Below are positions 3,095-46,121 of a DNA stretch of 64,000 nucleotides, one piece after another. A model generated the notes under the pieces. That model did not search any database and was not told the DNA's origin. It saw only the letters and a program-made list of their open reading frames with translations. The DNA is from Haemophilus parainfluenzae. GTDB lineage: Bacteria; Pseudomonadota; Gammaproteobacteria; Enterobacterales; Pasteurellaceae. The position numbers and the translations under genes were made by a program. How positions within the stretch are numbered: position 1 is the stretch's first letter; the number at the start of each line of letters is the position of its first letter. The stretch spans positions 1,984,001 through 2,048,000 of the forward strand of contig NZ_CP127167.1 in the NCBI RefSeq assembly GCF_036288925.1, in the 5' to 3' direction.

Positions 3095-3125
3095 TTTATC
3101 TACACTCAACCTGAGGTTATATAAA

Positions 3126-4073: not shown

Positions 4074-4096
4074 TTCTTTCGCTTAGTATTCATTTT

Positions 4097-4141
4097 AAAA
4101 GTGCGGTCGGAAAATCTTGTGTTTTTCGACCGCACTTTTTT
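4097..4141 (+). terminator. prs terminator built from an inverted uptake-signal pair
   Basis: Two facing copies of AAGTGCGGTCG separated by about seven bases form a strong stem, followed by a run of T on the plus strand. This inverted-USS arrangement is the usual Haemophilus way of ending genes while also marking the DNA for uptake. Confidence 0.85.
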
Positions 4142-4163
4142 ATACTTTCGTTAAAAATAGACA

Positions 4164-4241: not shown

Positions 4242-4248
4242 TGATTAA

Positions 4249-4277
4249 AGAATACGACAAAGTCCTTTACATTGCAA
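4249..4277 (-). promoter_or_regulatory. Promoter of the candidate sRNA
   Basis: On the minus strand: -35 TTGCAA (4277-4272), 17-bp spacer, -10 TATTCT (4254-4249). The spacing is optimal and the hexamers are each two mismatches from consensus, typical for an activator-dependent promoter. Confidence 0.55.
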
Positions 4278-4291
4278 ATAGCAATATTCAA

Positions 4292-4313
4292 ATTTGTGAG
4301 CTAAATCACGATT
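4292..4313. promoter_or_regulatory. CRP (cAMP receptor protein) binding site
   Basis: TGTGA-N6-TCACG with A/T flanks on both sides, very close to the CRP consensus TGTGA-N6-TCACA. The centre (about 4302.5) is near -61 from the predicted start of the minus-strand sRNA, the classical class I activation position. It lies downstream of the 3' ends of both prs and mdh, so it cannot serve either of those genes as an upstream site. Confidence 0.65.
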
Positions 4314-4349
4314 TTTCTTCACTTTTTTATGTTTAATCGTTTTCGTATA

Positions 4350-4375
4350 AAAAAAGAGGAGCTGACTACTCCTCT
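4350..4375 (-). terminator. mdh terminator
   Basis: Stem AGAGGAG/CTCCTCT with a 7-base loop; on the minus strand it is followed by a run of U. It lies 20 bases after the mdh stop codon and separates mdh from the candidate sRNA downstream. Confidence 0.75.
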
Positions 4376-4395
4376 TCTCCAGAAATAGAATTAAA

Positions 4396-5331
4396 TTAGC
4401 CGTTAATAAATTTTTCGCCTAATTCAATATCCGCACGCAATGTTGATAACATTGCTTCTAAAGCTTCTTGTTCAAATTTGCTTAAGGTACCGATTGGTAA
4501 AATTTCTTCTACACCTTCTTTACCTAAACGTACAGGTTGAGCAAAGAAACGTGCATATTTACCGTCACCTTCAACATAAGTACATTCAACCACAGTTTCG
4601 CCGCTTAAGCCTTTCACTAATGAACGCGCAAAACGTGCTGCCGCTTGAGCCATAGAAAGTGTTGCAGAACCGCCACCTGCTTTTGCTTCAACCACTTCAG
4701 TACCTGCGTTTTGGATACGTTTAGTTAATGGTGCAATTTCCTCTTCTTTCCACTCAGCATACTGAACTTGTGAAAGTAATGGAAGAATCGTCACACCTGA
4801 GTGTCCACCAATTACCGGTACGCTTGTACGAGAAACATTTAAGCCTTTTAATTCAGATACAAATGTTTCAGAACGTAACACGTCTAAAGTGGTGACACCG
4901 AATAATTTACGTTTGTCGTAAACACCCGCTTTTTTCAATACTTCTGCAGCAATCGCAACCGTCGTGTTCACAGGATTGGTGATAATACCTACACAAGCTT
5001 TTGGACAAGTTTTTGCAACATGTTCAATTAAGTTACGCACGATACCTGCATTGATATTGAAAAGATCTGAACGATCCATGCCCGGTTTACGAGCTACCCC
5101 TGCAGAAATTAAAACGACATCCGCACCTTTAAGTGCAGGTGTTGGATCTTCTCCTGCAAAACCTTCTACTTTAACCGCTGTTGGGATATGGCTCACATCT
5201 TTAGCCACACCTGGTGTCACTGGTGCAATATCATACAGTGCTAATTCACTTTCAGCGGGTAATTGTAATTTAAGTAATAAGGCTAATGCTTGACCAATGC
5301 CGCCTGCTGCGCCTAATACTGCAACTTTCAT
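4396..5331 (-). CDS. mdh: Malate dehydrogenase (NAD)
   Basis: Interconverts malate and oxaloacetate in the TCA cycle (and the reverse branch used by fermenting Haemophilus). The Rossmann motif GAAGGIG is at residues 7-13. The substrate arginines are in [10 protein letters not shown] (near 81 and 87), the [10 protein letters not shown] signature follows near residue 150, and the catalytic histidine is in GGHSGVT near 177. The 311 residues match the proteobacterial dimeric enzyme. A strong GAGGAG ribosome site precedes the ATG. It is divergent from argR, the same mdh-argR arrangement as in many gamma-proteobacteria, and has its own terminator. Confidence 0.98.
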
Positions 5332-12540: not shown

Positions 12541-12576
12541 AAAAAACGCTTAATAATTTTATTAAGCGTTTTTTTG
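12541..12576. terminator. Terminator after the dedA-family gene
   Basis: Long stem AAACGCTTAATAA/TTATTAAGCGTTT with flanking A and T runs; ends the dedA-type transcript and would also stop read-through from the tracrRNA side. Confidence 0.85.
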
Positions 12577-12619
12577 TTTTTGTTAATCTACTCTCACATC
12601 TTTATTTTCTAAATAAGCA

Positions 12620-12724
12620 GAAAAAAGATGTCCCTTGAAACTTACATTTCAAGGGACAGAGCTTTGCGAGAAATCTTTTCTCTTATTGTAACAACGTTTT
12701 TCATTTCGCAGTGCCATTACAACG
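12620..12724 (-). ncRNA. tracrRNA of the type II-C CRISPR system
   Basis: On the minus strand, about 105 nt. The 5' part is the anti-repeat: GGCACTGCGAAATGAAAA pairs with the CRISPR repeat over GCACTGCGAAAT, and a second block TTACAA pairs with the 5' end of the repeat, with a bulge between. Then comes the region AATAAGAGAAAAGATTTCTC, and the 3' end is a strong terminator hairpin (TGTCCCTTGAAA / TTTCAAGGGACA, then U6). This order and the terminal hairpin are like Neisseria meningitidis tracrRNA. It has its own promoter and is divergent from cas9. Confidence 0.93.
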
Positions 12725-12730
12725 AGGTGA

Positions 12731-12759
12731 ATTCTATCTATTTATTTTTTTATCGTCAA
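12731..12759 (-). promoter_or_regulatory. tracrRNA promoter
   Basis: Minus strand: TTGACG (12759-12754), exactly 17 bp, TAGAAT (12736-12731). The expected start is about 12724, the first bases of the anti-repeat. Confidence 0.85.
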
Positions 12760-12780
12760 TATATTTTTTATACAAAAATC

Positions 12781-12789
12781 TGTTAAAAT
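12781..12789 (+). promoter_or_regulatory. Possible extended -10 promoter of cas9
   Basis: TG-T-TAAAAT about 36 bases before the cas9 start, with no convincing -35. The tracrRNA and cas9 promoters are back to back within 60 bp. A ribosome site AAAAGGAA follows at about 12809-12816. Confidence 0.5.
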
Positions 12790-12824
12790 TTAAACAAAAA
12801 AACTAATGAAAAGGAACCAACCTT

Positions 12825-15800
12825 ATGGAAAATAAAAACTTACATTATATCCTTGGTCTCGACCTTGGTATCGCCTCTGTTGGCTGGGCTGTAGTTGAAA
12901 TTGACGAAAAAGAGAATCCTCTGCGTTTAATTGATGTTGGTGTTCGTACTTTCGAACGAGCAGAAGTACCCAAAACAGGTGAAAGTCTCGCGCTTTCTCG
13001 CCGTTTAGCCCGCGCTGCTCGTCGATTAACTCAACGTCGCGTTGCTCGCCTGAAAAAAGCAAAACGACTTCTAAAATCAGAAAATATCCTATTATCCACT
13101 GATGAACGTCTTCCTCATCAAATTTGGCAGCTACGTGTCGAAGGTCTAGATCGAAAACTAGAACGCCAAGAATGGGCTGCTGTGTTATTGCATTTAATTA
13201 AGCATCGTGGTTATTTATCTCAGCGTAAAAATGAAAGTAAAAGCGAAAATAAAGAGCTAGGTGCGTTATTAAGCGGTGTAGCCAGTAACCATGAATTATT
13301 GCAACAAGCTACATATCGTACGCCTGCAGAACTTGCTGTAAAAAAATTTGAGATCGAAGAAGGTCATATCCGTAACCAGCAAGGCGCCTATACTCACACG
13401 TTTAGCCGACTAGACTTACTCGCCGAAATGGAACTTCTCTTCTCTCGTCAACAACTCTTTGGTAATCCATTCGCTTCAGAAAAATTATTAGAAAATTTAA
13501 CCGCACTTTTAATGTGGCAAAAGCCCGCCTTATCTGGTGAAGCCATTTTAAAAATGCTCGGTAAATGTACTTTTGAAGATGAATATAAGGCGGCTAAAAA
13601 TACCTATACTGCAGAACGTTTTGTTTGGATAACAAAATTAAATAATTTACGTATTCAAGAAAATGGCTTAGAGCGTGCTTTAAGTGATAATGAACGTTTA
13701 ATGTTAATCGAGCAACCTTATGAAAAAGCTAAATTAACTTATGCACAAGTACGTTCAATATTAAATTTATCTGATGATGCAATCTTTAAAGGCGTCCGTT
13801 ATTCCGGTGAAGATAAAAAAGCCATTGAAACCAAAACAACTCTGATGGAAATGAAAGCCTACCATAAAATTCATGATGTATTAAAGAGTAATAACCTAAA
13901 AGCTGAATGGGCGGAATTAAAGACAAATCCAACATTGTTAGATGAAATTGGCACGGCATTTTCATTATATAAAACTGATGAAGGTATCAGCGCTTACTTA
14001 GCAGGAAAACTTTCTCAGCCTGTATTAAATGCCTTATTATTGGAAAACCTTAGTTTTGATAAATTTATCCAATTATCTCTTAAAGCTTTATATAAACTTC
14101 TACCATTAATGCAACAAGGGCTACGCTATGACGAGGCTTGTCGTGAAATTTATGGCGATCATTATGGTAAAAAAACAGAAGAGACCCATCACTTCTTACC
14201 ACAGATTCCAGCTGATGAAATTCGTAATCCTGTAGTTTTAAGAACGCTCACGCAGGCTCGTAAAGTAATTAATGGCATAGTGAGATTATATGGTTCGCCC
14301 GCTCGTATTCATATTGAAACAGGACGAGAAGTGGGCAAATCTTACAAAGATCGTCGAGAACTAGAAAAACGTCAAGAAGAAAATCGCAAACAGCGTGAAA
14401 ACGCAATCAATGAGTTTAAAGAGTATTTTCCTCATTTTGCTGGTGAACCTAAAGCTAAAGACATTTTAAAAATGCGACTTTATAAACAACAAAATGCAAA
14501 ATGTTTATATTCCGGTAAACCTATCGAATTACACCGTTTATTAGAAAAAGGCTATGTAGAAGTCGATCATGCCTTGCCATTTTCCCGCACTTGGGATGAT
14601 AGCTTCAACAATAAAGTATTGGTGCTTGCTAATGAAAATCAAAACAAAGGCAATTTAACCCCTTTTGAATGGCTTGATGGTAAACATAACAGCGAACGCT
14701 GGAGAGCTTTCAAAGCATTAGTTGAAACAACTGTATTCCCTTATGCGAAAAAACAACGCATCCTAAGCCAAAAGCTTGATGAAAAGGGCTTTATTGAACG
14801 TAACTTAAATGATACGCGCTACGTTGCTCGTTTCTTATGTAACTTTATTGCAGATAATATGCACTTAACAGGTGAAGGAAAACGTAAAGTCTTTGCTTCC
14901 AACGGGCAAATTACTGCTTTACTTCGTAGCCGTTGGGGATTAGCAAAATCACGTGAAGACAATGATCGCCATCACGCTTTAGATGCCGTTGTGGTCGCTT
15001 GCTCAACCGTCGCTATGCAGCAAAAAATCACACGTTTTGTTCGTTTTGAAGCAGGTGATGTATTCACTGGAGAACGAATAGATCGTGAAACAGGTGAAAT
15101 TATTCCATTACACTTCCCTACACCATGGCAATTTTTCAAACAAGAAGTTGAAATCCGAATTTTTAGTGATAATCCTAAACTGGAGCTAGAAAATAGATTA
15201 CCGGATCGTCCACAAGCAAATCATGAATTTGTCCAACCTCTTTTTGTATCTCGAATGCCAACACGCAAAATGACTGGTCAAGGACACATGGAAACCGTGA
15301 AATCCGCGAAACGTCTCAATGAAGGGATAAGCGTGATTAAAATGCCACTCACTAAATTAAAATTAAAAGATTTAGAATCAATGGTAAATCATGAGCGTGA
15401 AAAAGAGCTTTATGACGCATTAAAAGCTAGCTTAGAGGCTTTCAATGATGATCCTGCTAAAGCGTTTGCTGAACCTTTTATGAAAAAAGGCGGGGCTATT
15501 GTTAAATCAGTACGAGTAGAACAAATACAAAAATCTGGAGTATTAGTCCGTGAGGGTAATGGTGTCGCGGATAATGCCTCTATGGTGAGAGTGGATGTCT
15601 TCACTAAAGATGGAAAATATTTCCTTGTACCAATTTATACCTGGCAAGTAGCGAAAGGTATTTTGCCTAATAAAGCTGTTATTCAGGGAAAAGATGAAGA
15701 AGATTGGGAAAATATGGATGACAATGCAACTTTCCAATTTTCATTACACCAAAATGACTTAGTAAAATTAGTCACTAAAAAGAAAACTATTTTGGGTTAC

Positions 15801-15992
15801 TTTAATGGACTTAATCGTTCCACAGGTAATATTGATATTAAAGAGCATGATTTAGATAAATCTAAGATCAAAGATGGTATTCATCAAAGTGTCGGCATAA
15901 AACTTGCTACTTCCTTTGAAAAATATCAAGTAGATGAACTTGGCAAAAATATTCATTTATGTAAACCAAGTAAACGTCAAGCTGTTCGTTAA
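12825..15992 (+). CDS. cas9: CRISPR-associated endonuclease Cas9, type II-C
   Basis: RNA-guided nuclease that cuts DNA matched by the crRNA:tracrRNA pair. All catalytic parts are intact: RuvC-I D13 in [11 protein letters not shown], arginine-rich bridge helix at about 55-85, RuvC-II E498 in [12 protein letters not shown] with D581-H582 in [11 protein letters not shown], RuvC-III H717 and D720 in [11 protein letters not shown], then the PAM-interacting domain. At 1,055 residues it is a compact II-C Cas9, the size known for H. parainfluenzae Cas9. A perfect Haemophilus uptake signal (AACCGCACTTTT) lies inside the gene near 13500. It has a terminator directly behind it, so cas1-cas2 may be expressed less or from another promoter. 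Confidence 0.98.
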
Positions 15993-16000
15993 TTTTCTCC

Positions 16001-16032
16001 AATCCCCATCGCATTGCCTATGGGGATTTTTT
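16001..16032 (+). terminator. Hairpin between cas9 and cas1
   Basis: Stem AATCCCCAT/ATGGGGATT with a 10-base loop followed by T6, only 8 bases after the cas9 stop. It should stop or thin transcription into cas1-cas2. Confidence 0.75.
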
Positions 16033-16045
16033 ATAAGGAAACATT

Positions 16046-16963
16046 ATGACATGGAGAAGTCTTCTTATTAGCAAAGGAGGAAAACTCTCTTTGCATCAGC
16101 AACAAATGCTAATTCAGCAAGAAGGGAAAGAATTTACCGTTCCTTTAGAAGATATTGCTATTGTTGTTGTGGAAAGCCGAGAAACAGTGATTACCTTTCC
16201 GTTACTCTCTGCATTCGGTTTATATGGGATCACTTTATTGAGTTGTGATGAACAATTTTTACCTTGTGGTCAATGGCTCCCTTTTAATCAATATTATCGA
16301 CAATTAAAAACCCTTAAATTACAACTTGAAACCAGTTTGCCACTGAAAAAACAACTTTGGCAACGAATTGTGCAACAAAAAATTCGTAATCAAGCAAAAG
16401 TCTTATCACTCTGTCAGTTTCAAGAAAAATCAGAACGCTTACTCCAGCTCGCTAATTTAGTGAAATCAGGTGATAAAGATAATCTTGAGGCACAAAGTGC
16501 GGTTATTTATTTCTCTGGATTATTCGGCACTCATTTCAGACGAAAAGAAGAAGACAATGCGATTAATATACATCTGAACTATGCTTATTCAGTTATGCGT
16601 TCAGCTGTGGCAAGAAGCCTTGTTCTTTATGGTTGGCTACCTCAATTAGGTTTATTTCATCATAGTGAACTTAATGCCTTTAATTTGGCTGATGATTTTA
16701 TTGAACCTTTTCGCCCTATTGTTGATTTGCTTGTATCGAACTTGCTCGAAAAAGGCTTACTCTCCAAAAACCTTAGTCCTATATCAAAACAACAATTAAT
16801 AAAAATCTTACATCATCAACTACGCTTTAAGCGGGAAAAAGTGAGTGTTTTAACTGCCATAGATAAAAGTGTTGCCTCTTTACAAATTGCACTTATTCAA
16901 AAAAATGCAGCATTATTGCAGTTACCAGAAATTGATACACTACAGGAATATCAATATGAGTGA
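16046..16963 (+). CDS. cas1: CRISPR-associated endonuclease/integrase Cas1, type II
   Basis: Integrates new spacers with Cas2. Type II Cas1 of 305 residues with an N-terminal beta domain and the helical catalytic domain. The expected metal ligands are E148 (LEAQSAV), H205 (FHHSELN) and E220 (DFIEPFRP). A ribosome site AAGGAAAC precedes the ATG. The gene holds a perfect uptake signal, AAAGTGCGGTTATT, near 16494. It is followed within 11 bases by the preferred cas2 start and probably shares its transcript. Confidence 0.97.
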
Positions 16964-36271: not shown

Positions 36272-36361
36272 TTAATCATTTTTAAATCCATTCTTACGAA
36301 TAATCTCTTGCGCATGCTTGCTCAATAAAAATTGATAAAATCGTTGCGTCAATTCGGTAAT
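36272..36361 (-). pseudogene. 3' remnant of a second solute-binding protein gene
   Basis: Minus strand, reading LTQRFYQFLLSKHAQEIIRK then NGFKND and a TAA stop at 36272. This is the usual C-terminus of a ModA/iron-type periplasmic binding protein. The frame differs from that of the neighbouring binding protein, whose own end (HLFYQIELPN) runs into it at about 36350-36360. A deletion that joined the two genes is the simplest reading. Confidence 0.55.
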
Positions 36362-37314
36362 TCAATCTGATAGAACAAGTGATAAAACGTTTGTACTTCT
36401 TTTGCAAATTCAGCAATAGGTTTACCGCTGGCTAAATGAGAGACCCAACGTACTCCAAGCAAACGGTTCACACTAGGTGGCGAATCTAACCAACCAAATG
36501 GATTATTCGGAATTAAAAAAACGTGTCCATTTTTGACCGCACTTAATTGTTGCCATTGCGGATTATCTTTTAAGGTTTGCAAAAACTCAGGATATTGGCT
36601 AAAAATCACATCAGGATTCCATAATAAAAGTTGCTCCATCGAAACCTGTGTGAGCCCTTTATGATCGCCTTCTACCACGTTTTTTAAACCGACTATTTCA
36701 ATGGCTTCCGTATGAATGGAGCCTTTTTGTCCTGTTTGTAAGCCATCTGCACTACGAGCTAAATAGAAGGTTTTGGTAAATTTAGAGGCGTTTTCGACCG
36801 CTTGTTTAAGCGTTTCTTCCGCATACTTAGCCTGAGGTTTAGTTAAGTTCTCTACCCCTAATACTTTGCCTAAATAACGTAAGGTAGTCGGTGTTTCGCT
36901 GAGTTTGCCATCTAACAATAAATAAGGCACGCCCGTTTGCTCAAAGGTGCGCTTTGCTTGATCGATATAGTTTGGCGTAACATTACCCACATCAATAATT
37001 AAATTCGGTTGTAATGCCACAATTTTCTCTGGCGAGAGCGTGCTGCCTTTTCCAGCTATTTTCCCTAAGGTTGGTAAAGTTTGTTGCACTGCAGGAAACA
37101 GTTTTCCGCGTTTTTCCATATTAAATCCTGCCAATCCAAGCAATTTATTCGGTGCACTTGAAAGCAATAATACATCGGCTGGATTGCCCGCACTTAATAC
37201 TTTTTCAATTTTAGCAGGCTGAGGCAATTCCCCTGCCAAATAAGATACTTCCTCGGTTGCTAATGCTGCGGTTCCTACACAGACTGAAAGTACAATGGTT
37301 ATCCATTTTTTCAT
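36349..37314 (-). CDS. Haem/iron-complex ABC transporter substrate-binding protein (HmuT-like)
   Basis: Periplasmic binding protein of the BtuF/FhuD/HmuT class. Signal peptide residues 1-19 (ends GTAALA). The mature protein has the paired Rossmann-like lobes with LLLSSAPNKLLGLAGFN, GSTLSPEKIVALQPNLIID near 92-110, and WNPDVIFSQYPEFL near 234. At 321 residues it is close to full length, but the last residues come from the junction with a foreign reading frame. No permease or ATPase gene is next to it; with the TonB-receptor remnant at 44.4 kb it marks a haem/iron uptake locus that has lost parts. Confidence 0.85.
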   Translation of the reverse strand: MKKWITIVLSVCVGTAALATEEVSYLAGELPQPAKIEKVLSAGNPADVLLLSSAPNKLLGLAGFNMEKRGKLFPAVQQTLPTLGKIAGKGSTLSPEKIVALQPNLIIDVGNVTPNYIDQAKRTFEQTGVPYLLLDGKLSETPTTLRYLGKVLGVENLTKPQAKYAEETLKQAVENASKFTKTFYLARSADGLQTGQKGSIHTEAIEIVGLKNVVEGDHKGLTQVSMEQLLLWNPDVIFSQYPEFLQTLKDNPQWQQLSAVKNGHVFLIPNNPFGWLDSPPSVNRLLGVRWVSHLASGKPIAEFAKEVQTFYHLFYQIELPN

Positions 37315-37459
37315 GTTTTCTCCCTCTTTTAGCCATTCAACTGATACAACTTAATTTTAACGCTATATATTTTTTAACATAACAGATAAATTTTGTTAGA
37401 ATAACATCGTTATATTTTCAATTATATAATATTTATTATTCATAGCTAAAGGTGAAAAA

Positions 37460-38107
37460 ATGAAATGGGATGTGATTTATAAGTTTTGCTTGCTTTGCAT
37501 ACTCATTGCAGGATTAGCAGGGATATTGTTCAGCGGCTTAGGGATTTACTTCCAGTGGCCCATTCAAGGCATCTTTCAGTTGCATTTAGGTTCTGCTTTA
37601 CTGTTTATTTTGGGTGTGGCTTTACACGTCTTCAATCGTAAAAATAAAGCGGTCAAAATTGTTCAACAATTTAACGATTTAGTGACACATAGTCGCTATC
37701 CCACCTATTGCAATTTAGACCGTTTGATCATGACGTTTGAGCACTTTTCAATTCTACAAATTGCGGAGCAACTTCAACTTACCCCTTCGATTTTACTCAC
37801 TGAATTAGCTAACGGAAAAATAAACTTCAGCGATTCTAACCGCACTTTACGAGAAAATTTCCCCCATCATAATGATGAGAAAATTTTCGCCGCGATCACT
37901 ATTGCATTGAAGTTACGTTTCAACCCCAACCCAAAACCGACCGCGCTTTTGCCTTACAAGCCGACTTTAGTAGAAACAGTATCCTTTGGCAGGATTGCGA
38001 CCGTATCGGTCAAGCCCCCGCCACGCGCAGGGCGGCGATTAGGGCGGCCATGGCGGCGGTTTTATGACGGTTTTGCGGGTAATACAGATACATCGGCGGG
38101 TAAGTGA
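37460..38107 (+). CDS. Two-helix membrane protein with hybrid C-terminus
   Basis: Starts after AAAGGTG with two membrane helices (about 9-32 and 37-57), then a soluble part (FEHFSILQIAEQLQLTPSIL near 96). I recognise no family, though such genes sit beside haem-uptake genes in Pasteurellaceae. After about residue 175 the frame enters GC-rich foreign DNA and reads antisense through the end of the LysR gene (KPPPRAGRRLGRPWRR...), so the last 35-40 residues are not native. The native stop has been lost at the left junction of the island. Confidence 0.6.
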   Translation: MKWDVIYKFCLLCILIAGLAGILFSGLGIYFQWPIQGIFQLHLGSALLFILGVALHVFNRKNKAVKIVQQFNDLVTHSRYPTYCNLDRLIMTFEHFSILQIAEQLQLTPSILLTELANGKINFSDSNRTLRENFPHHNDEKIFAAITIALKLRFNPNPKPTALLPYKPTLVETVSFGRIATVSVKPPPRAGRRLGRPWRRFYDGFAGNTDTSAGK

Positions 38108-38909
38108 TGGCGGTTTGGGGGAGGATTTCCACCAGTTTGCCCGCCTCAAGTGCAGCTTGCACCCAGCTTTGCGGCAGCCACGCCACCGCCAGTCCGTCCA
38201 ACGCCGCTTGTTTCACCAGCAGGGTGGAATTAAACACCAGGCTTTCGGGCACGCGGATTTTCACCAACTGCTTGTTTTCCATAAATTCCCATTCGCTCAG
38301 GCGGTATTCGGGGTTAAAGGAAATCACGGCGCAGCGATGTTTTGCCAATTCCTTCAAAGCCTTAGGCGCGCCGAAGCGAGCAAGATAAACAGGCGACGCT
38401 ACCAGCGCCATTTGGTTGGGCGCGGAAATCGGCACCGCCACCATATCGCCCGCCACGTCTTTACCCGAGCGCACGCCGAAATCAAACCGCTCCGCCACGA
38501 TGTCGCAATAGCGGTTGTTGATAAAAATCTCCAGCTCCATATCGGGATTGTCCGCAAAAAAACCGCTTAATCTGGGGTAAATCAGCTCGTAGGCGGGGCG
38601 TTCGGGGCAGTTAATGCGGATTTTGCCGCGCATTTCGTGGGTGAAATCCACCAAGGCACCCAACTCCTGCTGAATGCCGCTAAACAGCGGCGCAATGCGT
38701 TCGAGCAGCTGCTGCCCCGCTTCGGTGGTGGATACGGCTCTGGTGGTGCGGTTTAACAACTTGATTTTCAGACGGCCTTCCAAATCGCTAATCCGGTGGC
38801 TCAAGGCGGAAGGCTGCACGTTTAACGCCTGCGCCGCTTTGCTGAAACTGCCGAGTTTTGCCACCTGCACAAAGGCGTAGAGGTCGTTGAATTGTTTGTT
38901 GTCGTTCAT
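38010..38909 (-). CDS. LysR-type transcriptional regulator of the island
   Basis: 299 residues. Winged helix at the N-terminus (DLYAFVQVAKLGSFSKAAQA, then QPSALSHRISDLEGRLKIKL near 32-51) and an effector domain of the CrgA/YafC-type group. It is divergent from the first hydrolase, the classical LysR layout, and three 15-bp T-N11-A sites in the island are its likely targets. The coding sequence carries an AG-type Neisseria uptake sequence (AGGCCGTCTGAA). Its 3' end overlaps, antisense, the truncated native gene at the left junction. Confidence 0.92.
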   Translation of the reverse strand: MNDNKQFNDLYAFVQVAKLGSFSKAAQALNVQPSALSHRISDLEGRLKIKLLNRTTRAVSTTEAGQQLLERIAPLFSGIQQELGALVDFTHEMRGKIRINCPERPAYELIYPRLSGFFADNPDMELEIFINNRYCDIVAERFDFGVRSGKDVAGDMVAVPISAPNQMALVASPVYLARFGAPKALKELAKHRCAVISFNPEYRLSEWEFMENKQLVKIRVPESLVFNSTLLVKQAALDGLAVAWLPQSWVQAALEAGKLVEILPQTAITYPPMYLYYPQNRHKTAAMAALIAALRVAGA

Positions 38910-38925
38910 CGCTGCTGCTCCATTG

Positions 38926-38940
38926 GTGAAATTTTCTCAC
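38926..38940. promoter_or_regulatory. Putative LysR operator 1 (hydrolase 1 / lysR)
   Basis: GTGAAATTTTCTCAC, a near palindrome with T-N11-A. Its centre (38933) is about 65 bp upstream of the predicted start of hydrolase 1 and 17 bp or more before the lysR ATG, so it could also serve autoregulation. Confidence 0.6.
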
Positions 38941-38963
38941 TAGCGTATAGCAATTTATCTGTC

Positions 38964-38991
38964 TTATCAAATAAATTCATCGGCTTATAAT
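38964..38991 (+). promoter_or_regulatory. Promoter of island hydrolase 1
   Basis: TTATCA, 16 bp, TATAAT (38986-38991); start expected near 38998. A wider inverted repeat AATTTAT/ATAAATT (38952-38977) covers the -35 region and may be a second, lower-affinity regulator site. Confidence 0.6.
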
Positions 38992-39032
38992 AATACGCCT
39001 GATCAACGTTCGACAAACAAGATAGAAACCCG

Positions 39033-40115
39033 ATGAAACGCAATATAATGAAAGGCTTGAAAGCCACATTCTTAACCGCAACGCTCGCTACAATCTTAGG
39101 AGGCAACGCCATGGCAGCAGATTACCGCAATAACCCGTTCACCTTAACTTACGACGGCGCCATCACTGAAAACGTGCAAGGCAAAGTGAATATCCACCCT
39201 GTGAAATACACCCAAAAACAAACCGGCATCGAAGTGGTGGCCAACGTTTACACACCGGTCAACTACGACGCCAAGAAAAAATACCCGACCATCGTGGTTG
39301 CCCACCCGAACGGCGGCGTGAAAGAACAAGTGGCCGGCCTGTACGCGCAGCGTTTGGCAGAGCAAGGCTATCTCACCATCGCCTTTGACGCAGCCTACCA
39401 AGGCGGCAGCGGCGGCACACCGCGCTACACCGATAAACCGCAAAACCGTATCGAAGACATCCGCTCGGCGGCGGACTTTATCAGCCAATATCCGGGCGCG
39501 GACGCCAGCCGCTTGGGCGTACTCGGCATTTGTGGCGGGGGCGGCTACACCATCAAAGCGGTGCAAACCGACAAACGCTTTAAAGCGGTGGCAACGCTAA
39601 GTATGTTCAACTCCGGCGACGTGCGAAGAAACGGTTTTATGCGCAGCCAAAAAGACACTATTCAAGAGCGTTTGGCAGACATCGCCAAAGTGCGCACCGA
39701 AGAAGCTGCGGGCGGCCCGATTCAATACACACCGGCTTTCGGTCAAAACATGACCGACGAACAAGTCGCCGCGCTGCCCTTCGAGCTGTACCGTCAAGGC
39801 TACCAATATTACGGCCAAACCCACGCTCACCCGAATTCGCAAACCAACAGCACCGTGGACAGTTTGCAGGATTTGATGGAGTTTGACGTCAACGCCAACG
39901 TGGATTTGATTAACCAACCGCTCTTGATGATGGCAGGCGACAAAGCCGACACCTTATACATGACCGAAGAAGTGTTCGCCAACGCCACCGGCACCAAAAA
40001 CAAAGAGCTGTACAAAATCAAAGGCGCCACCCATATGGAAACCTATTGGAAACAGCCCTATGTGGATCAAATCAGCAGCAAACTCACCGAATTTTTCGGC
40101 GCGAATTTGAAATAA
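39033..40115 (+). CDS. Exported alpha/beta hydrolase (dienelactone-hydrolase-like)
   Basis: 360 residues. Signal peptide about 1-29 (core LKATFLTATLATILGGNA, cleavage after AMA). The mature enzyme has an alpha/beta-hydrolase fold: oxyanion region VVAHPNGGVKEQ, nucleophile elbow LGICGGGGYT near residue 166 (a cysteine in place of serine, as in dienelactone hydrolase), acid in MMAGDKADTLY near 300, and catalytic histidine in IKGATHMETYW near 333. Substrate unknown; similar proteins are annotated as hydrolases of lactones or xylan-type esters. First gene rightward from the lysR-divergent promoter; own terminator made of Neisseria uptake sequences. Confidence 0.88.
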   Translation: MKRNIMKGLKATFLTATLATILGGNAMAADYRNNPFTLTYDGAITENVQGKVNIHPVKYTQKQTGIEVVANVYTPVNYDAKKKYPTIVVAHPNGGVKEQVAGLYAQRLAEQGYLTIAFDAAYQGGSGGTPRYTDKPQNRIEDIRSAADFISQYPGADASRLGVLGICGGGGYTIKAVQTDKRFKAVATLSMFNSGDVRRNGFMRSQKDTIQERLADIAKVRTEEAAGGPIQYTPAFGQNMTDEQVAALPFELYRQGYQYYGQTHAHPNSQTNSTVDSLQDLMEFDVNANVDLINQPLLMMAGDKADTLYMTEEVFANATGTKNKELYKIKGATHMETYWKQPYVDQISSKLTEFFGANLK

Positions 40116-40169
40116 CACCGGTAAAGTGCGGTCGGAATTTTGAAAATTTTTCTCACCGCAAAAACGAAC

Positions 40170-40206
40170 AATGCCGTCTGAAAATAAATTTTTCAGACGG
40201 CATTTT
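40170..40206 (+). terminator. Terminator made of an inverted pair of Neisseria uptake sequences
   Basis: ATGCCGTCTGAAAA / TTTTCAGACGGCAT with a short A/T loop, followed by TTTTA. Both arms are the full 12-mer AT-DUS of Neisseria. A perfect Haemophilus uptake signal stands 50 bases upstream (40122). Confidence 0.9.
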
Positions 40207-40210
40207 ATTG

Positions 40211-40225
40211 GTGAGAATTTTTCAC
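40211..40225. promoter_or_regulatory. Putative LysR operator 2 (flavodoxin operon)
   Basis: GTGAGAATTTTTCAC, a near-perfect palindrome with T-N11-A, centred about 66 bp upstream of the predicted start of the flavodoxin-reductase-cupin operon. Confidence 0.6.
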
Positions 40226-40248
40226 AGAGCCATTGCGATTTATGCGGA

Positions 40249-40277
40249 TTATCAAACCAATTCAACAGGTTTACACT
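40249..40277 (+). promoter_or_regulatory. Promoter of the flavodoxin operon
   Basis: TTATCA (40249-40254), 17 bp, TACACT (40272-40277), start near 40284; the -35 hexamer is the same as at the hydrolase 1 promoter. Confidence 0.55.
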
Positions 40278-40303
40278 ATGTTCAAGCCATTAAGGAGAAT
40301 AAG

Positions 40304-40906
40304 ATGAAGCATTCAAAATTGACCCGCCTCCGTTTTGTGCAAGGCGGTTTGGCGCTGCTGGCAGCAGGCGGACTGAATCTCAAAGCAAGCGCCGCAGGCA
40401 AAAGCGATACGCTGGTGGTGTACCTTTCCCGCACCGGCAACAACAAAGCCTTGGCGCAGTTTGTCGCCCAAAGCACGGGGGCGGATTTGGCCGCCATCGA
40501 AACCGCCGAACCTTATCCGCAAAATTATGCGCAAATGCGCGACCAAGCGGCACAAGAAATTGCAGACGGTGTGTTGCCACCGCTGAAAAACATGCCGAAC
40601 ATCGAGCCTTACCGCCGTATCGTCATCGTGTTCCCTACTTGGGCGATGCGCCTGCCCGCACCGGTGAAGAGTTTTTTAATCGGGCGCAACCTACGCGGCA
40701 AAACCATTCTGCCGCTCAACACCAATGCCGGTTACGGCGTGGGCAGCGGCTTTGAGGAAATCAAACTGCTGGCAGCAGGCGCGGACGTGCGCCTGGGTTT
40801 GTCGCTCAAAGGCGGCAACGAACGCGACGGCATTCTTTTGGTGATGAAAGGCAATGCCCTGACGCAGGCACAAAACCAAATCCGTCCGTGGCTGGCAAAA
40901 AATTAA
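40304..40906 (+). CDS. Flavodoxin-like protein with N-terminal export signal
   Basis: 200 residues from ATG 40304, which has TAAGGAG before it. The N-terminus (MKHSKLTRLRFVQGGLALLA, then AAGGLNLKASA) looks like an export signal; TRLRFVQ is one residue away from a Tat motif with its second arginine changed. The rest is a flavodoxin fold: phosphate loop LSRTGNNKALA near residue 42, the IVFPTWAMRLPAPVKSFL strand and loop near 109-126, and TNAGYGVGSGFEEIK near 141. It binds FMN by family knowledge; if exported folded it would need Tat. First gene of a three-gene operon with a 12-base gap to the reductase. Confidence 0.85.
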   Translation: MKHSKLTRLRFVQGGLALLAAGGLNLKASAAGKSDTLVVYLSRTGNNKALAQFVAQSTGADLAAIETAEPYPQNYAQMRDQAAQEIADGVLPPLKNMPNIEPYRRIVIVFPTWAMRLPAPVKSFLIGRNLRGKTILPLNTNAGYGVGSGFEEIKLLAAGADVRLGLSLKGGNERDGILLVMKGNALTQAQNQIRPWLAKN

Positions 40907-40918
40907 GAAGCAAATAAA

Positions 40919-41881
40919 ATGAAAACCAGAATTTTAGGCAAAGATTTAACTGTGTCCGCCATCGGGCTGGGCATTATGGGTATGGATCACGCTTACGGCA
41001 AGGCGGCAGATCGCGGCGAGATGATTGAGCTTATCCGCCATTCCATCGCGTTGGGCGGAAATTTTTTTGACACCGCGCCCATTTACGGCAAGGCCAATGA
41101 AATGCTACTGGGCGAAGCGGTGAAAGGCATGCGCCATCAAGCGGTGATCGCCACCAAATTCGGCATTGTGGGGCAAACTCATTCCGCCAGCGGCGTGGAG
41201 AATGTGCTGGACAGCCGCCCCGAATCCATCCGCAAGCAAGTGGACGAATCATTACGCAATCTGCAAACCGACTACATCGACCTGTATTACCAGCACCGCA
41301 TTGACCCGAATGTACCCGCCGAGGCTGTGGCGGAAGTAATGGGCGAATTGATTAAGGCAGGCAAAATCCGTCATTGGGGCGTGTCCAACGCGCCGATTGA
41401 GTATATGGCCGCCGCCCACGCCGTTACGCCCATTACCGCCACGGAGAACCAATATTCCATGGTGTTCCGCGCTCCCGAAAAAGCATTGTTTGCTTTTTGC
41501 GAAGCCAACCATATCGGCTTTGTGGCATACAGCCCACTGGGGAACGGCTTTTTAAGCGGCCGTTTTAATGCGCAGACCCAGTACGCCAAAGGCGATTTCC
41601 GCCGCATGATGAAGCGTTTTTCGGCGGATGTGATGACGAAAAACCAGCCTGTGTTGGACTTGCTGCACGAGCTCGCCGCCGCCAAATCCGCCACCGCCGC
41701 GCAAATCGTGTTGGCGTGGGAACTGGCGCAACGGGATTTCATCGTGCCGATCCCGGGGACGACCAAACAATCCCGTCTGCAAGAAAATTTGGGCGCGATG
41801 GCGGTTGAATTAAGTACCGATGAAGTGGCGCGTATCAATCAAAAATTAGATGCCATGCACATCGACGAAACGCATTTTTAA
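40919..41881 (+). CDS. Aldo/keto reductase
   Basis: 320 residues, (beta/alpha)8 NADPH-dependent reductase without a signal peptide, so cytoplasmic. Catalytic set D-Y-K-H: FFDTAPIYGKANE (D45, Y50 region), the lysine in VIATKFGIVG near 80, and the histidine in LYYQHRIDPN near 124. The C-terminal cofactor motif is IPIPGTTKQSRLQENL-like near 280. Closest to the YajO/YghZ-type or general aldehyde/quinone AKR group. Second gene of the operon, 12 bases from each neighbour. Confidence 0.93.
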   Translation: MKTRILGKDLTVSAIGLGIMGMDHAYGKAADRGEMIELIRHSIALGGNFFDTAPIYGKANEMLLGEAVKGMRHQAVIATKFGIVGQTHSASGVENVLDSRPESIRKQVDESLRNLQTDYIDLYYQHRIDPNVPAEAVAEVMGELIKAGKIRHWGVSNAPIEYMAAAHAVTPITATENQYSMVFRAPEKALFAFCEANHIGFVAYSPLGNGFLSGRFNAQTQYAKGDFRRMMKRFSADVMTKNQPVLDLLHELAAAKSATAAQIVLAWELAQRDFIVPIPGTTKQSRLQENLGAMAVELSTDEVARINQKLDAMHIDETHF

Positions 41882-41893
41882 CGGTCTAATACC

Positions 41894-42919
41894 ATGAAAA
41901 TTTTACAAAAACTGACCGCACTTTGCATGGCATTATCCAGCCTGACAGCGGTTGCGGAGGATAAAATGTCAACCACTTACACACCAGTCAATCAACAAAC
42001 CCTACAAGTGGCAGACGCTGCCCATTTTAGCGGCAACGCCGAGTTTGCCCGCCTACCTATAATGCCATCAAACGGCGATGTTGCGCCCGCTATTGTGCAT
42101 TTTGCCCCCAATGCGTTGACGGATTGGCACAGCCACAGCCAAGGGCAGTATTTGATCGTAACCGACGGCACGGGGCGTTTCCAAGAATGGGGCAAGCCCG
42201 TGCAAACCATTCAAAAAGGCGATGTAGTGTGGATTGCGCCCGATGTCAAACACTGGCACGGCGCGGGCAAATTCACGGCGATGAGCCATATCGCCATCAG
42301 TCCCGTCAAAGACAATCGCGTAACTTGGCTGGAAAAAGTAAGCCCTGAGGCAGATAAAAGCGCGGTCAAAAATTCAAAAGTTTTTGACGGTATATTCACC
42401 GCCAAACAGCGCAGTATCGTCCCGCTCGCCGTCGCCGCTACGATTGGCGACCAAGCAGGCGTAAAAACTGCCGCCGAAAATGCACTGGCAGCAGGCTTGA
42501 CGGTGAGCGAACTCAAGGAAGCTGTGTCGCACCAGTTTGCCTATATCGGCGCACCAAAAACCCTCAACGCCTTGACCACGCTCAAAGCCCTACTTGACGA
42601 ACGCACCGCCCAAGGCATCAAAGACCCGCAAGGCAAACCCGCCACGGATTTGGGCAAAGTAGATTATTACGCGCTCGGCACGCAAAAAATGGCGCAGCTT
42701 ACCCAAGCGGCGACTTCCCGCCCGATTTTTGATTTCGCTCCGGCGGTGGATTACGCCCTCAAAGCCGAACTGTTCGGCTACCAGTTCGCCCGCGATAATT
42801 TGGGCGATGTAGAGCGCGAACTCGCCACCCTCGGCTCGCTGCTCGCCTTCGGCGAAAGCGTCAACGGACAACTGCGCTCGCATTTAAGCGTGCTGAAAAA
42901 TTTGGGCTTAAGCGAGTAA
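41894..42919 (+). CDS. Cupin / carboxymuconolactone-decarboxylase-like protein, C-terminus cut by a stop
   Basis: 341 residues with a signal peptide (cleavage after about LTAVA, residue 21). Domain 1 is a cupin with metal ligands in DWHSHSQGQYLIV and KHWHGAGKF (residues about 77-120). Domain 2 (about 170-240) is a CMD/AhpD-like helical domain (TIGDQAGVKTAAENALAAGL, then HQFAYIGAPKTLNAL) without the CxxC of AhpD. After the TAA at 42917 the same frame stays open for 26 codons to a TGA at 42998 and reads GLAQIERQISPAQAANMQSV, which looks like the natural continuation, so the stop is probably a recent nonsense change. The signal sequence contains a perfect Haemophilus uptake signal. Confidence 0.85.
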   Translation: MKILQKLTALCMALSSLTAVAEDKMSTTYTPVNQQTLQVADAAHFSGNAEFARLPIMPSNGDVAPAIVHFAPNALTDWHSHSQGQYLIVTDGTGRFQEWGKPVQTIQKGDVVWIAPDVKHWHGAGKFTAMSHIAISPVKDNRVTWLEKVSPEADKSAVKNSKVFDGIFTAKQRSIVPLAVAATIGDQAGVKTAAENALAAGLTVSELKEAVSHQFAYIGAPKTLNALTTLKALLDERTAQGIKDPQGKPATDLGKVDYYALGTQKMAQLTQAATSRPIFDFAPAVDYALKAELFGYQFARDNLGDVERELATLGSLLAFGESVNGQLRSHLSVLKNLGLSE

Positions 42920-43027
42920 GGCTTGGCGCAGATTGAGCGGCAAATCAGCCCGGCGCAAGCGGCGAATATGCAAAGCGTGTGGGCAAGCGTGAAAGGCTGA
43001 AAGCGCGGTCGGTTTTGAGCAAATTTT

Positions 43028-43062
43028 AAGACCGTCTGCCCCCCTTGTCAGACGGCCTTTAT
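43028..43062 (+). terminator. Degraded Neisseria-type uptake-sequence terminator
   Basis: GACCGTCTG and CAGACGGCC face each other around a C-rich loop, followed by TTTATT. It resembles the other inverted DUS pairs but each arm has changes. Confidence 0.65.
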
Positions 43063-43064
43063 TC

Positions 43065-43079
43065 TTGAAAATTTCTCAC
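43065..43079. promoter_or_regulatory. Putative LysR operator 3 (hydrolase 2)
   Basis: TTGAAAATTTCTCAC, one base off the dyad of operator 1, with T-N11-A. Centre about 65 bp upstream of the predicted start of hydrolase 2. Confidence 0.55.
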
Positions 43080-43102
43080 AACATCATACTGATTTTACAG
43101 AA

Positions 43103-43130
43103 TTAACATTCTAACCCATTCCGCTATAAT
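43103..43130 (+). promoter_or_regulatory. Promoter of island hydrolase 2
   Basis: TTAACA (43103-43108), 16 bp, TATAAT (43125-43130); start near 43137. Confidence 0.6.
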
Positions 43131-43164
43131 GTCCCTAATCCAATCAAACACAAGGACAATCAAG

Positions 43165-44268
43165 ATGAAAAAATCCGCATTTTTTACCGCACTTTCGCTG
43201 GCGGCAGCCACGGCAACCGCCGCGCCGTTAAGCATTGAAAGCCAAGGCAGTTTTGCTGTGGGCGGTACGGTGAAAACCAGTCAAGGCCACTACAACCCAC
43301 GCCCTGAAATTACCCAAAATAAAACGGCTAACGACTTTATGGCGGTGTTCAACGCCAATATGCAAAATGGCGGGCAGACCCTGCACGGCGATCACGCAAC
43401 GGTGTGGTATCAAATCCCGACGGTTGCCAAAGCCTTGCCGCTGGTGTTTTTGCACGGCGCGGGGCAGTCAATGCGCACGTGGCAGACCACGCCTGACGGT
43501 CGTGAGGGCTGGAACAATATTTTCTTACGCAAAAATTACCCCGTTTTCCTCGTAGATCAACCGCGCCGAGGCTGGTCGGGACGTTCCACTGTGGACGGTG
43601 CGATTACTGCCACGCCCGACGATCAATTTTGGTTCGCCCAATTCCGTATGGGCGAATACCCGAAATTTTTTAAGGGCGTCGCTTTCCCGCAAGATGCCGC
43701 CAGCCTGAACCAATTTTTCCGCCAAATGACCCCGAACACCGGCGCCTTTGACGTAGGCGTGATTTCAGACAGCCTCAAAGCCCTGTTTGAGCGCGTGGGC
43801 GACGGCATGCTCGTTACCCATTCGCAAGGCGGCATCGCAGGTTGGTTTGCGGGCATCAAAGCGTCTGACAAAATCAAAGGGATTGCCGCCATTGAGCCGG
43901 GCAACTTCCCCTTCCCCGAAGGCGAAGTACCGCCCACCATCACCAGCGCATTCGGCGATATTGTTCCCGCCAAGATAAGTGCGGCGGATTTTGAAAAACT
44001 CACCAAAATGCCGATTATCATCTATTTTGGCGATAATATCAGTGATAAACCGTCCAAAATCCAAGGCGAAGACCAATGGAGCATCCGTCTCGCCCTCGCC
44101 CGCCAATGGGCGGATGTGGTGAACAAACATGGAGGCGATGTCAAAGTGGTGCATTTGCCAGAAGTGGGCATTCACGGCAACACCCATTTTATGATGCAGG
44201 ATTTGAATAATGCCGAGGTTGCCGAGCATTTGGCGGGTTGGTTGCAAGAAAAGGGGCTGAATAAATAA
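43165..44268 (+). CDS. Exported alpha/beta hydrolase (esterase/lipase type)
   Basis: 367 residues from ATG 43165 (AAGGACAATCAAG before it); an upstream in-frame ATG at 43129 lies over the -10 and is unlikely. Signal peptide about 1-20 (MKKSAFFTALSLAAATATAA). The mature part is an alpha/beta hydrolase: LVFLHGAGQSMRTW (oxyanion HG) near residues 90-103, VDQPRRGWSGRS near 129-140, nucleophile serine in LVTHSQGGIAGW near 220, and histidine in VGIHGNTHFMM near 340. Substrate unknown. The signal-peptide codons contain a perfect Haemophilus uptake signal (ACCGCACTTT). Own promoter and operator; ends in an inverted DUS terminator. Confidence 0.9.
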   Translation: MKKSAFFTALSLAAATATAAPLSIESQGSFAVGGTVKTSQGHYNPRPEITQNKTANDFMAVFNANMQNGGQTLHGDHATVWYQIPTVAKALPLVFLHGAGQSMRTWQTTPDGREGWNNIFLRKNYPVFLVDQPRRGWSGRSTVDGAITATPDDQFWFAQFRMGEYPKFFKGVAFPQDAASLNQFFRQMTPNTGAFDVGVISDSLKALFERVGDGMLVTHSQGGIAGWFAGIKASDKIKGIAAIEPGNFPFPEGEVPPTITSAFGDIVPAKISAADFEKLTKMPIIIYFGDNISDKPSKIQGEDQWSIRLALARQWADVVNKHGGDVKVVHLPEVGIHGNTHFMMQDLNNAEVAEHLAGWLQEKGLNK

Positions 44269-44270
44269 CA

Positions 44271-44303
44271 AAATGCCGTCTGAAATTTTCAGACGGCATT
44301 TCG
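44271..44303 (+). terminator. Inverted Neisseria uptake-sequence terminator
   Basis: AAATGCCGTCTGAAA / TTTCAGACGGCATTT with almost no loop; both arms are full AT-DUS 12-mers. Right-most clear Neisseria mark of the island. Confidence 0.88.
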
Positions 44304-44395
44304 TATCTCAAAAACTTTCTAAAATCCTACCGCGCTTTTTAGAAAATCGCTTTATTCGGGGAGTCGGCTTTTTCCCTTTGAGTATAAGGCATCGG

Positions 44396-44637
44396 GATGT
44401 GGGTCAGCATATATTGGCGCATGGCAATCGGAACATGGCCGTTATTATTTAGATGGTGGTGAAACCGTGAAACTCTCTGGTTTTGGAAATAGCAATGCGA
44501 AATTGATCTATGAACCTGTTTCAGGGTTAAGTTTAGAAGCGGGTGTATCGAACCTCTTTGATAAAAACTACTACTATCAAGCTGGCTACCCAGAAGAAGG
44601 ACGCATTTATTTCGGCAATATCCGATATAAATTCTAA
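44396..44637 (+). pseudogene. C-terminal remnant of a TonB-dependent receptor
   Basis: The frame ending at TAA 44635-44637 reads YIGAWQSEHGRYYLDGG, KLSGFGNSNAKLIYEP, LSLEAGVSNLFDKNYYYQAG and ends GRIYFGNIRYKF. These are the last beta-strands of an outer-membrane siderophore/haem receptor, including the NLFDK motif and the terminal aromatic F. About 80 residues of a protein that normally has 600-800 remain, with no start. The loss of its 5' part coincides with the right edge of the island, so the receptor was removed when the island came in. Confidence 0.85.
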
Positions 44638-44640
44638 AAT

Positions 44641-44681
44641 AAAAAACGGGCAACTTGTAAAACAGGTTGCCCGTCGTTTTT
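44641..44681. terminator. Terminator between the receptor remnant and hldE
   Basis: AAAAAACGGGCAAC / GTTGCCCG...GTTTTT, bidirectional; serves the receptor remnant and hldE, which converge. Confidence 0.8.
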
Positions 44682-44690
44682 ATAAAGCCA

Positions 44691-46121
44691 TTAATCTTTC
44701 AGCGCTTTGATTTTCTCAATCACGTTTGTAGTTGAACAGCCATTTTCGAAATTCAATACACGAACATCACCGCCGTTCGCCCACACTTCTTTACTGCCTG
44801 CAATCTCTTCTGGTTTGTAATCGCCGCCTTTTACCAATAAATCCGGTAAAATCTCACCGATTAAACGTTGTGGTGTATCTTCATCAAAAGAGACTACCCA
44901 ATCCACTGAAGCTAAACCAGCCAATACTGCCATACGAGCATTCAGATTGTTAATTGGACGACTTTCACCTTTTAAGCGTTTGACTGAATCATCCGTATTC
45001 ACGGCAACAATTAAGCGATCGCCAAGTTTGCGAGCATTTTCTAAATAAGACACATGACCTGGATGAAGAATATCAAAACAACCGTTTGTCATCACAATTT
45101 TCTCACCGCGCGCTTTAGCATGAGATACTGCAGTTTTTAATTGGCTTTCTGACATAATACCGAAGCCTGTTTCAGAACGTCCATGGATTGCATTCTCTAA
45201 TTCCACAGTAGAAACCGTTGATGTACCCAATTTACCAACCACAATACCTGCCGCCACATTGGCTAAGTAGCAAGATTCTTCAAAAGAAAGACCGTCTGCA
45301 AGTGCGGTTGCTAAGACACTGATTACGGTATCGCCCGCCCCCGTTACATCAAACACTTCTTTTGCAACGGTTGGTAAATGGAACGGTTCTTGATTTGGAC
45401 GAAGTAATGTCATGCCTTTTTCAGAGCGCGTCACTAAAAGTGCGGTCAATTCGATGTCTGAAATTAATTTTAAACCTTTCTCAATGATCTCTTCTTCAGA
45501 ATCACACTTACCTACCACCGCTTCAAACTCTGACATATTTGGTGTCAGTAAAGTCGCACCACGATAACGCTCAAAATCTGTACCTTTTGGATCGATTAAC
45601 ACGGGTACGTTTGCTTTACGTGCAATTTGGATCATCTTTTGCACATCTTTTAATGTACCTTTACCGTAATCAGAAAGCACTAGCGCACCAAAGTTTTTCA
45701 CTTCCGTTTCTAATTTCGCAAGCAACTCATTACATTCCACGTTTTGGAAATCTTCTTCAAAGTCCAAGCGTAGTAATTGTTGATGACGAGACAAAATACG
45801 TAATTTCGTAATGGTTGGGTGAGTATCCAATGCCACAAAATTACAATCAATTTTTTGATGTTGTAATAAATTGGTTAAGGCTGCACCTGTTTCATCTTGA
45901 CCAATTAATCCCAAAATTTGCACAGGTACATTAAGAGAAGCAATATTCATTGCCACGTTTGCTGCACCACCTGCACGCTCTTCATTATCTTGTACACGAA
46001 CCACAGGAACTGGTGCTTCCGGTGAAATACGATTAGTCGCACCAAACCAGTAACGGTCAAGCATCACATCGCCTAACACTAATACTTTCGCTTGATTAAA
46101 ATTGGCAGAATATTGAGCCAT
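44691..46121 (-). CDS. hldE: Bifunctional heptose 7-phosphate kinase / heptose 1-phosphate adenylyltransferase
   Basis: Makes ADP-heptose for the LPS inner core. N-terminal ribokinase domain (about 1-318) with [11 protein letters not shown] and the catalytic [11 protein letters not shown] near 265. C-terminal nucleotidyltransferase domain (about 345-476) with [20 protein letters not shown] near 347 and the HxGH motif. 476 residues, full length. Single gene, divergent from the lpxL-type acyltransferase gene that also serves LPS. Confidence 0.97.

Follow-up and report, generated by a model that had tools for sequence, protein, structure and literature searches.

Introduction

Regulators of the LysR family classically act through a recognition box near position -65 and an activation box near -35. 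The general recognition-box/activation-box model and the T-N11-A motif are set out in PMC11739112. Here we describe an apparently acquired island of Haemophilus parainfluenzae that carries a gene for a LysR-type regulator and three rightward transcription units, encoding a hydrolase (hydrolase 1), then a flavodoxin, an aldo/keto reductase and a cupin/carboxymuconolactone-decarboxylase-like (cupin/CMD) protein, and finally a second hydrolase (hydrolase 2). All positions, unless another locus is named, refer to a 64,000-nucleotide stretch of contig NZ_CP127167.1 (RefSeq assembly GCF_036288925.1, positions 1,984,001 to 2,048,000, forward strand), referred to below as the window. The island shares with textbook LysR regulators the family domains, the divergent gene, and the spacing and position of the boxes, and its site architecture is textbook. 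Unlike the textbook cases, one local regulator is matched here by three similar promoters in one gene block (one to four elsewhere), and binding within the island is predicted.

In Escherichia coli the LysR regulator PgrR (YcjZ) represses peptidoglycan-degradation genes. Its gene is likewise divergent from that of a hydrolase-1 homologue, YcjY, and the two regulators are 34% and the two hydrolases 35% identical. YcjY and hydrolase 1 both have GIC at the nucleophile elbow; unlike hydrolase 1, YcjY has no signal peptide by eye, and the annotation of the 9-kb pgrR-ycjY region (1384000-1393000) lists neither a flavodoxin nor an aldo/keto reductase nor a CMD gene. This locus was rejected as a carrier of the same operator, as its best score with the site matrix is only 2.4 (L105), and at 34% identity the island regulator is not a PgrR/YcjZ orthologue. 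By eye, another palindrome, ATCATTTAAATGAT, lies in the pgrR-ycjY intergenic region (L105 141-310), about as far from a possible promoter.

A second comparison is with YafC, which is encoded beside dkgB in E. coli, so that a LysR gene again adjoins an aldo/keto reductase gene, annotated as a methylglyoxal reductase. YafC is 27% identical to the island LysR, and the YafC model (NF040888) is its top NCBIfam match, but at 152 bits against a cut-off of 470 the island protein is not a YafC equivalog. The yafC-dkgB locus (L104) was also discarded as a carrier of the site, with a best matrix score of only 4.9. Neisseria CrgA (PDB 3hhg) belongs to the same broad LysR group (E=5.5e-26) and is not the closest structure, 3mz1 being nearer (E=2.7e-31). 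The targets of CrgA are not known to include this gene set. No described system with this gene set was recognised in the open-access literature searched.

A probable LysR regulon with three two-box operators

The island (37937..44425, 6,489 bp, no strand) probably works as a self-contained LysR regulon, in which three promoters would be switched together by the island's own regulator through two-box sites. This proposal, which draws on sequence comparison, is well supported by the recurrence of this two-box site, with equal spacing, ahead of the same gene classes in several relatives. The regulator gene (38010..38909, minus strand) is divergent from the first unit, and this gene order is as the initial annotation of the window described it.

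That annotation had also reported near-palindromes ahead of the three units, and a check of the sequence places them at 38926, 40211 and 43065. Operator 1 has the -65 box GTGAAATTTTCTCAC (38926..38940, plus strand), operator 2 has GTGAGAATTTTTCAC (40211..40225, plus strand) and operator 3 has TTGAAAATTTCTCAC (43065..43079, plus strand), all three being found by both pattern and matrix. The promoters of hydrolase 1, the flavodoxin and hydrolase 2 have the -10 elements TATAAT (38986..38991), TACACT (40272..40277) and TATAAT (43125..43130), all on the plus strand. With transcription starts predicted 7 nt past the -10 hexamer, the box centres fall at -65, -66 and -65, which bears out the positions first proposed. 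In the aligned promoters the -65 box occupies columns 5-17 and reads TGA-N9-TCA, a form of T-N11-A, centred at -65/-66.

The original description of the operators stopped at this first box. A second T-N11-A box, in columns 32-44 with flanks that are mostly GAT...ATC, is centred at about -38 and overlaps the -35 hexamer TTATCA or TTAACA. It was located by matrix on the plus strand at 38952..38968 in operator 1, at 40237..40253 in operator 2 and, in a weak form, at 43091..43107 in operator 3. The resulting 46-bp two-box site offers a tight, testable definition of a regulon for an apparently undescribed gene set.

In the mechanism that we propose, LysR would sit on the -65 box as its recognition box and contact the second box at about -38. 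On binding an effector it would shift on the second box, touch RNA polymerase and activate the three promoters, and thus hydrolase 1, the flavodoxin-aldo/keto reductase-cupin/CMD unit and hydrolase 2. Because only 16 bases separate operator 1 from the start codon of lysR, the protein probably represses its own gene too. With this common promoter grammar, any compound that switches on one promoter would be expected to switch on the other two, which provides a handle on the inducer.

The sites were compared with chance expectation in several ways. The pattern shared by the three -65 boxes, KTGARAWWTTYTCAM, has exact matches only at the three sites in the 2,228,071-bp genome, a test that is partly circular because the pattern was drawn from the sites. 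With one mismatch the pattern finds 26 places on the forward and 27 on the reverse strand, and its reversed control 14 and 18, so that the looser matches are mostly background. A two-box pattern, also partly shaped on the sites, matches exactly only at the same three places genome-wide, and its next best match has two mismatches.

A cleaner test came from a matrix of 46 columns, which contains no window sequence and was trained on five other genomes, through the lysR/hydrolase-1 promoters of Orbus hercynius (L001), Frischella japonica (L002), Cricetibacter osteomyelitidis (L077), G229 (L073) and G232 (L074). This matrix ranks the three sites first, second and third of 127,910 positions on both strands of the window (scores of 35.0, 25.6 and 21.4; next best 15.0). 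The top score in 200 first-order Markov windows was 18.5, never 21.4, and none of 200 column permutations of the matrix brought the lowest-placed of the three sites to a better rank than 3543 (666 when 10 bases of slack were given). The -65 half of the matrix alone ranks the sites 2, 6 and 1, and the second-box half ranks them 1, 7 and 121 of 127,954; the last rank marks the second box of site 3 as weak. The ranking by a matrix from other genomes confirms the three-site observation, which is well above chance.

Matching sites in relatives

The island LysR is 68-75% identical to the regulators of Orbus, Frischella, Cricetibacter, G229 and G232. A second matrix was trained on eight sites (those of the five other genomes plus the three of the window; the site of G435, a probable Neisseriaceae genome, was excluded) and run over 11 loci (the window, L001, L002, L073, L074, L077, L082, L003, L005, L075 and L078), with sites listed at a score of at least 15. 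It returned the eight training sites and 13 further ones, which score 13.0 to 36.0 with the window-free matrix. An open reading frame (ORF) of at least 100 residues begins within 260 bp of 11 of these 13, and every one belongs to a gene class of the module: five aldo/keto reductases (two in L074 and one each in L003, L005 and L078), two flavodoxins (L077 and L003), two carboxylesterases, one hydrolase 1 (L003) and one cupin/CMD protein (L082). The 549/550-residue carboxylesterases were assigned by Pfam in L077 and by likeness to the L077 protein in L003, and the L082 cupin/CMD gene is in two pieces by tblastn. The two sites lacking such an ORF are L082:3106, where a transposase-like ORF starts further on, and L075:3491. 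Two more sites stand ahead of hydrolase 1 and a flavodoxin in L079, which has no lysR gene in the 12 kb fetched.

The distance to the promoter recurs along with the site. Centre-to-start spacing is -66 in Orbus, Frischella and G229, at each of the four Bibersteinia sites and at two of the three Cricetibacter sites, the first among them; it is -65 at the remaining Cricetibacter site and at one site in G435. With the window-free matrix, scores of 30.8-36.0 are obtained for the four Bibersteinia sites, even though the regulator there is only 41% identical to the island LysR. In Cricetibacter lysR and hydrolase 1 are separated by an ORF of a different type, and the site remains with hydrolase 1. 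The layout recurs ahead of these gene classes in Pasteurellaceae, in Orbaceae and in the probable Neisseriaceae genome. The module is a clear case of joint transfer of a regulator with its operators between bacterial families.

Some relatives show further rearrangements. In L074 (G232; 1152-4838 and 12553-16111) the flavodoxin, reductase and hydrolase-2 genes are duplicated, and both reductase genes are preceded by the same 46-bp sequence as their site; a fusion to an alpha/beta hydrolase (by likeness) is seen in one of the flavodoxins, and the second hydrolase-2 copy is fragmented in tblastn. In L077 the flavodoxin gene is followed by a further alpha/beta hydrolase gene, checked by Pfam.

Evidence against the regulon and alternative readings

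A number of observations weigh against a single regulon under the island's own LysR. Within the island, site 2 goes with a weak -10 element (4/6), site 3 with its weak second box, and two of the enzymes carry lesions (an early stop in the cupin/CMD gene and an altered flavodoxin signal, see below). With three mismatches the two-box pattern matches 18 and 17 times in the genome and its reversed control 21 and 6 times, which makes such remote matches background. In G232 the script picked a -10 element elsewhere (giving -61), though TACAGT stands at the common register. Orbus (L001), Frischella (L002) and G229 (L073), which make up half of the six genomes whose regulators are closest, have only one site each; their further module genes may share the first transcript.

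Other loci carry module genes and lack the site. No site was found in Chelonobacter (L006) or G057 (L080), though both have hydrolase 1 and cupin/CMD genes, and hydrolase 1 occurs with no site in the scanned loci L006, L007, L008 and L029/L080. In Lautropia (L005) only the first box is seen before a lysR-like gene, which also goes against a simple rule. The nearby LysR proteins are 42% (L006) and 28-32% (L080) identical to that of the island, compared with 41% in Bibersteinia. Greater distance of the LysR does not account for every missing site, since the L006 protein is no more distant than that of Bibersteinia.

The alternative that survives best, which we nevertheless consider unlikely, is that the three sites are genuine and are read mainly by a second, related LysR of the same genome (G000:C1:337561-338439, 46% identical to the island LysR), or by both proteins. 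The site at that second locus, TTAGTGAATTTAATTCAC...TTTATC before its reductase gene, scores 20.2 with the window-free matrix, just below site 3 (21.4), and this closeness means that the two circuits may cross-talk. Sites 1 and 2, on the other hand, score well above it. Twelve LysR-homologue loci were found in the host's family, and eight of the 10 scanned have such a site, which speaks for this alternative; against it, each of the multi-site loci L003, L074, L077 and L082 includes a lysR gene, L079 with its two sites being the exception. The claim of an island-wide LysR regulon is well supported by the comparative sites in its regulatory half, with the qualification that the second LysR could also read them, while the pathway half remains a guess. 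The second locus (L078, about 335.7-338.4 kb, 49-52% GC content) consists of lysR, a divergent gene for a DkgA-like reductase and a gene for a mandelonitrile-lyase-like cupin.

It is improbable that the likeness of the sites is a leftover from the duplication of one promoter and that they no longer act in this host. Uptake-word hairpins ahead of site 2 and, imperfectly, site 3 would suit such a history, as would the rarity of close LysR orthologues in the host's family and the two coding lesions, which suggest relaxed constraint. The likeness is concentrated, however, at positions conserved in other genomes, and the intervening bases differ, unlike those of a recent copy; moreover, lysR and the genes of the reductase and of the two hydrolases have open frames. 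A third reading, AT-rich palindromes arisen by chance or remnants of extended uptake sequences, could appeal to a look-alike at 40140, which adjoins a Haemophilus-type uptake word at 40124; it is contradicted by the Markov and column-permutation controls and by recurrence in other genera, leaving it with almost no probability. The look-alike itself (one mismatch) was rejected as a fourth operator, as its second box is absent and its 46-column score is -13.7.

Genes of the island and their possible function

The regulator of the proposed regulon has 299 residues and both LysR domains over the Pfam cut-off, HTH_1 (PF00126, E=4.6e-21) at the N-terminus and LysR_substrate (PF03466, E=6.6e-34) at the C-terminus. 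Hydrolase 1 (39033..40115, plus strand) is a dienelactone-hydrolase/YcjY-like protein (Pfam DLH and Peptidase_S15), with a match to the YcjY structure 5xb6 at E=1.5e-53. It is not a UilS lactonase by NCBIfam NF047920 (75 bits against a cut-off of 400). The Cricetibacter homologue (L077 9447-10502) is without a stretch of roughly 30 residues that is present in the others. A hairpin of paired uptake words (40170..40204, no strand), terminator-like on both strands, is likely to be the terminator of this first unit.

The second unit begins with the flavodoxin (40304..40906, plus strand; Pfam Flavodoxin_4), which by alignment has an N-terminal signal resembling those of the twin-arginine (Tat) pathway. 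In the window this signal (40304-40380) reads TRLRF, against NRRRF or SRRQF in two of the four aligned relatives (Cricetibacter and G232), and without the twin arginine export by Tat may be weakened. The aldo/keto reductase (40919..41881, plus strand; Pfam Aldo_ket_red, E=1.4e-75) has no signal by eye. The cupin/CMD protein (41894..42919, plus strand; Pfam Cupin_2 and CMD) does have a signal peptide by eye, and its stop is premature compared with all five aligned relatives, with a homologous tail in frame behind it (42917-43000). Its CMD part reaches the Pfam domain and is not PcaC, the 4-carboxymuconolactone decarboxylase (TIGR02425, 35.9 bits against a cut-off of 155.7); its cupin part narrowly misses (R)-mandelonitrile lyase (NF049940, 123.8 against 140 bits). 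Gaps of 12 bases separate flavodoxin from reductase and reductase from cupin/CMD, so the three genes probably form one transcript. With these two enzyme lesions, decay of the block in its present host is possible, and some functions may be lost.

Hydrolase 2 (43165..44268, plus strand) is an alpha/beta hydrolase that lies barely above the Abhydrolase_6 cut-off (26.5 against 26.3 bits), has a THSQGG nucleophile elbow and resembles the solved structures 4q34 (E=2.9e-96) and the esterase 1qlw (E=1.6e-38). An imperfect pair of uptake words is seen by eye ahead of site 3, and a hairpin of paired uptake words after the third unit (44268..44304, no strand), terminator-like on the minus strand only, is a possible terminator. 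Export had been proposed for both hydrolases and the flavodoxin, and signals by eye agree with this; with the cupin/CMD protein, whose signal had been missed, they are seen in four of the five island enzymes.

The products probably act as one ester- or lactone-cleaving and reducing set, with esterases, cupin/CMD protein and flavodoxin outside the cytoplasm and the reductase inside. Hydrolases abound, including the carboxylesterases and extra alpha/beta hydrolases at the sites of relatives, which makes an ester or lactone the best-guess substrate, and the reductase might then handle the carbonyl product of its cleavage. The pathway first suggested, removal of an electrophile, lactone or quinone, agrees with the gene content insofar as this fits ester or lactone chemistry plus reduction, and is a guess as to both substrate and inducer. 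The bacteria that carry the gene set are animal-associated. More tentatively, the island may represent a mobile, self-regulated envelope detoxification or catabolic module, in which a LysR family with its own multi-promoter regulon moves between Neisseriaceae, Pasteurellaceae, Orbaceae and Lautropia, and exported esterases and flavodoxin, cupin/CMD proteins and aldo/keto reductases would perform extracytoplasmic flavin chemistry on a mucosal-surface substrate. A response to hypochlorite or quinones was also considered. A carboxymuconolactone decarboxylase is among many genes reported as induced in Burkholderia biofilms (PMC7464077), evidence too thin to choose this function on.

Extent, origin and distribution

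Alignment of the flanks, GC content and uptake words delimit the island. Its GC content is 53%, against 38-41% in the surrounding DNA. Flanking positions 36358-37936 (from 36355 in G004) and 44426-46000 align with G010, G004 and G009 with no island sequence between them, and the same flanks occur in G008, so that four genomes of the genus have about 1.79 kb of other sequence at the island's place, which establishes the boundaries. The remaining six genomes of the genus have the right-hand part only, plus matches of a few dozen bases; in the one of these that was read, G005 (L108), the whole locus is missing. The 1.79 kb of the empty site holds most of a TonB-receptor-like ORF (Plug domain). 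In the window this gene is replaced by the island, only its last residues being left at the right edge, and the site adjoins a periplasmic-binding-protein/FecCD locus.

All five Neisseria-type uptake words (GCCGTCTGAA) of the window lie within the island, one of them inside lysR, compared with three of its 43 Haemophilus-type words. The six-gene block seems to have been acquired by a Haemophilus-like bacterium from a Neisseria-like one, and judging by these words the donor likely had Neisseria-type uptake sequences. The donor was not found among the genomes searched, in which the nearest regulator from a probable Neisseriaceae genome, with no more than five candidates scored in each genome, is that of G435 (58% identical). 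The Haemophilus-type words of the island (40124-40132, 41915-41923 and 43186-43194), two of which are in signal-peptide codons, look like later gains, made either since the island arrived or in a different host among the Pasteurellaceae.

Of 140 genomes from the family of the host, 11, its own included, have a LysR homologue at E <= 1e-75; identity to the island LysR is 75% in G028, 57% in G151 (with an in-frame stop) and 44-48% in the other eight. Within the genus, just one of the ten further genomes, G007, has a LysR that reaches this threshold, and the Orbus family has homologues in four of 44 genomes. At E <= 1e-85, with no more than five candidates scored in each genome, one of 399 genomes from the order of Lautropia has the regulator, namely G435. 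With 21 GCCGTCTGAA words in 19.5 kb, G435 is presumably a member of the Neisseriaceae. A search for the gene set and motif in Neisseria and Kingella had been suggested; in the family of G435 it yields a LysR at E <= 1e-85 in one of 83 genomes, G435 itself, with a site ahead of its cupin/CMD gene. Hydrolase 1 is more widespread (E <= 1e-40 in 28 of 120 genomes, own included), with 21 of these at no more than 40% identity, and a search of genome contigs with it gave eight of 20 loci at 61% identity or above.

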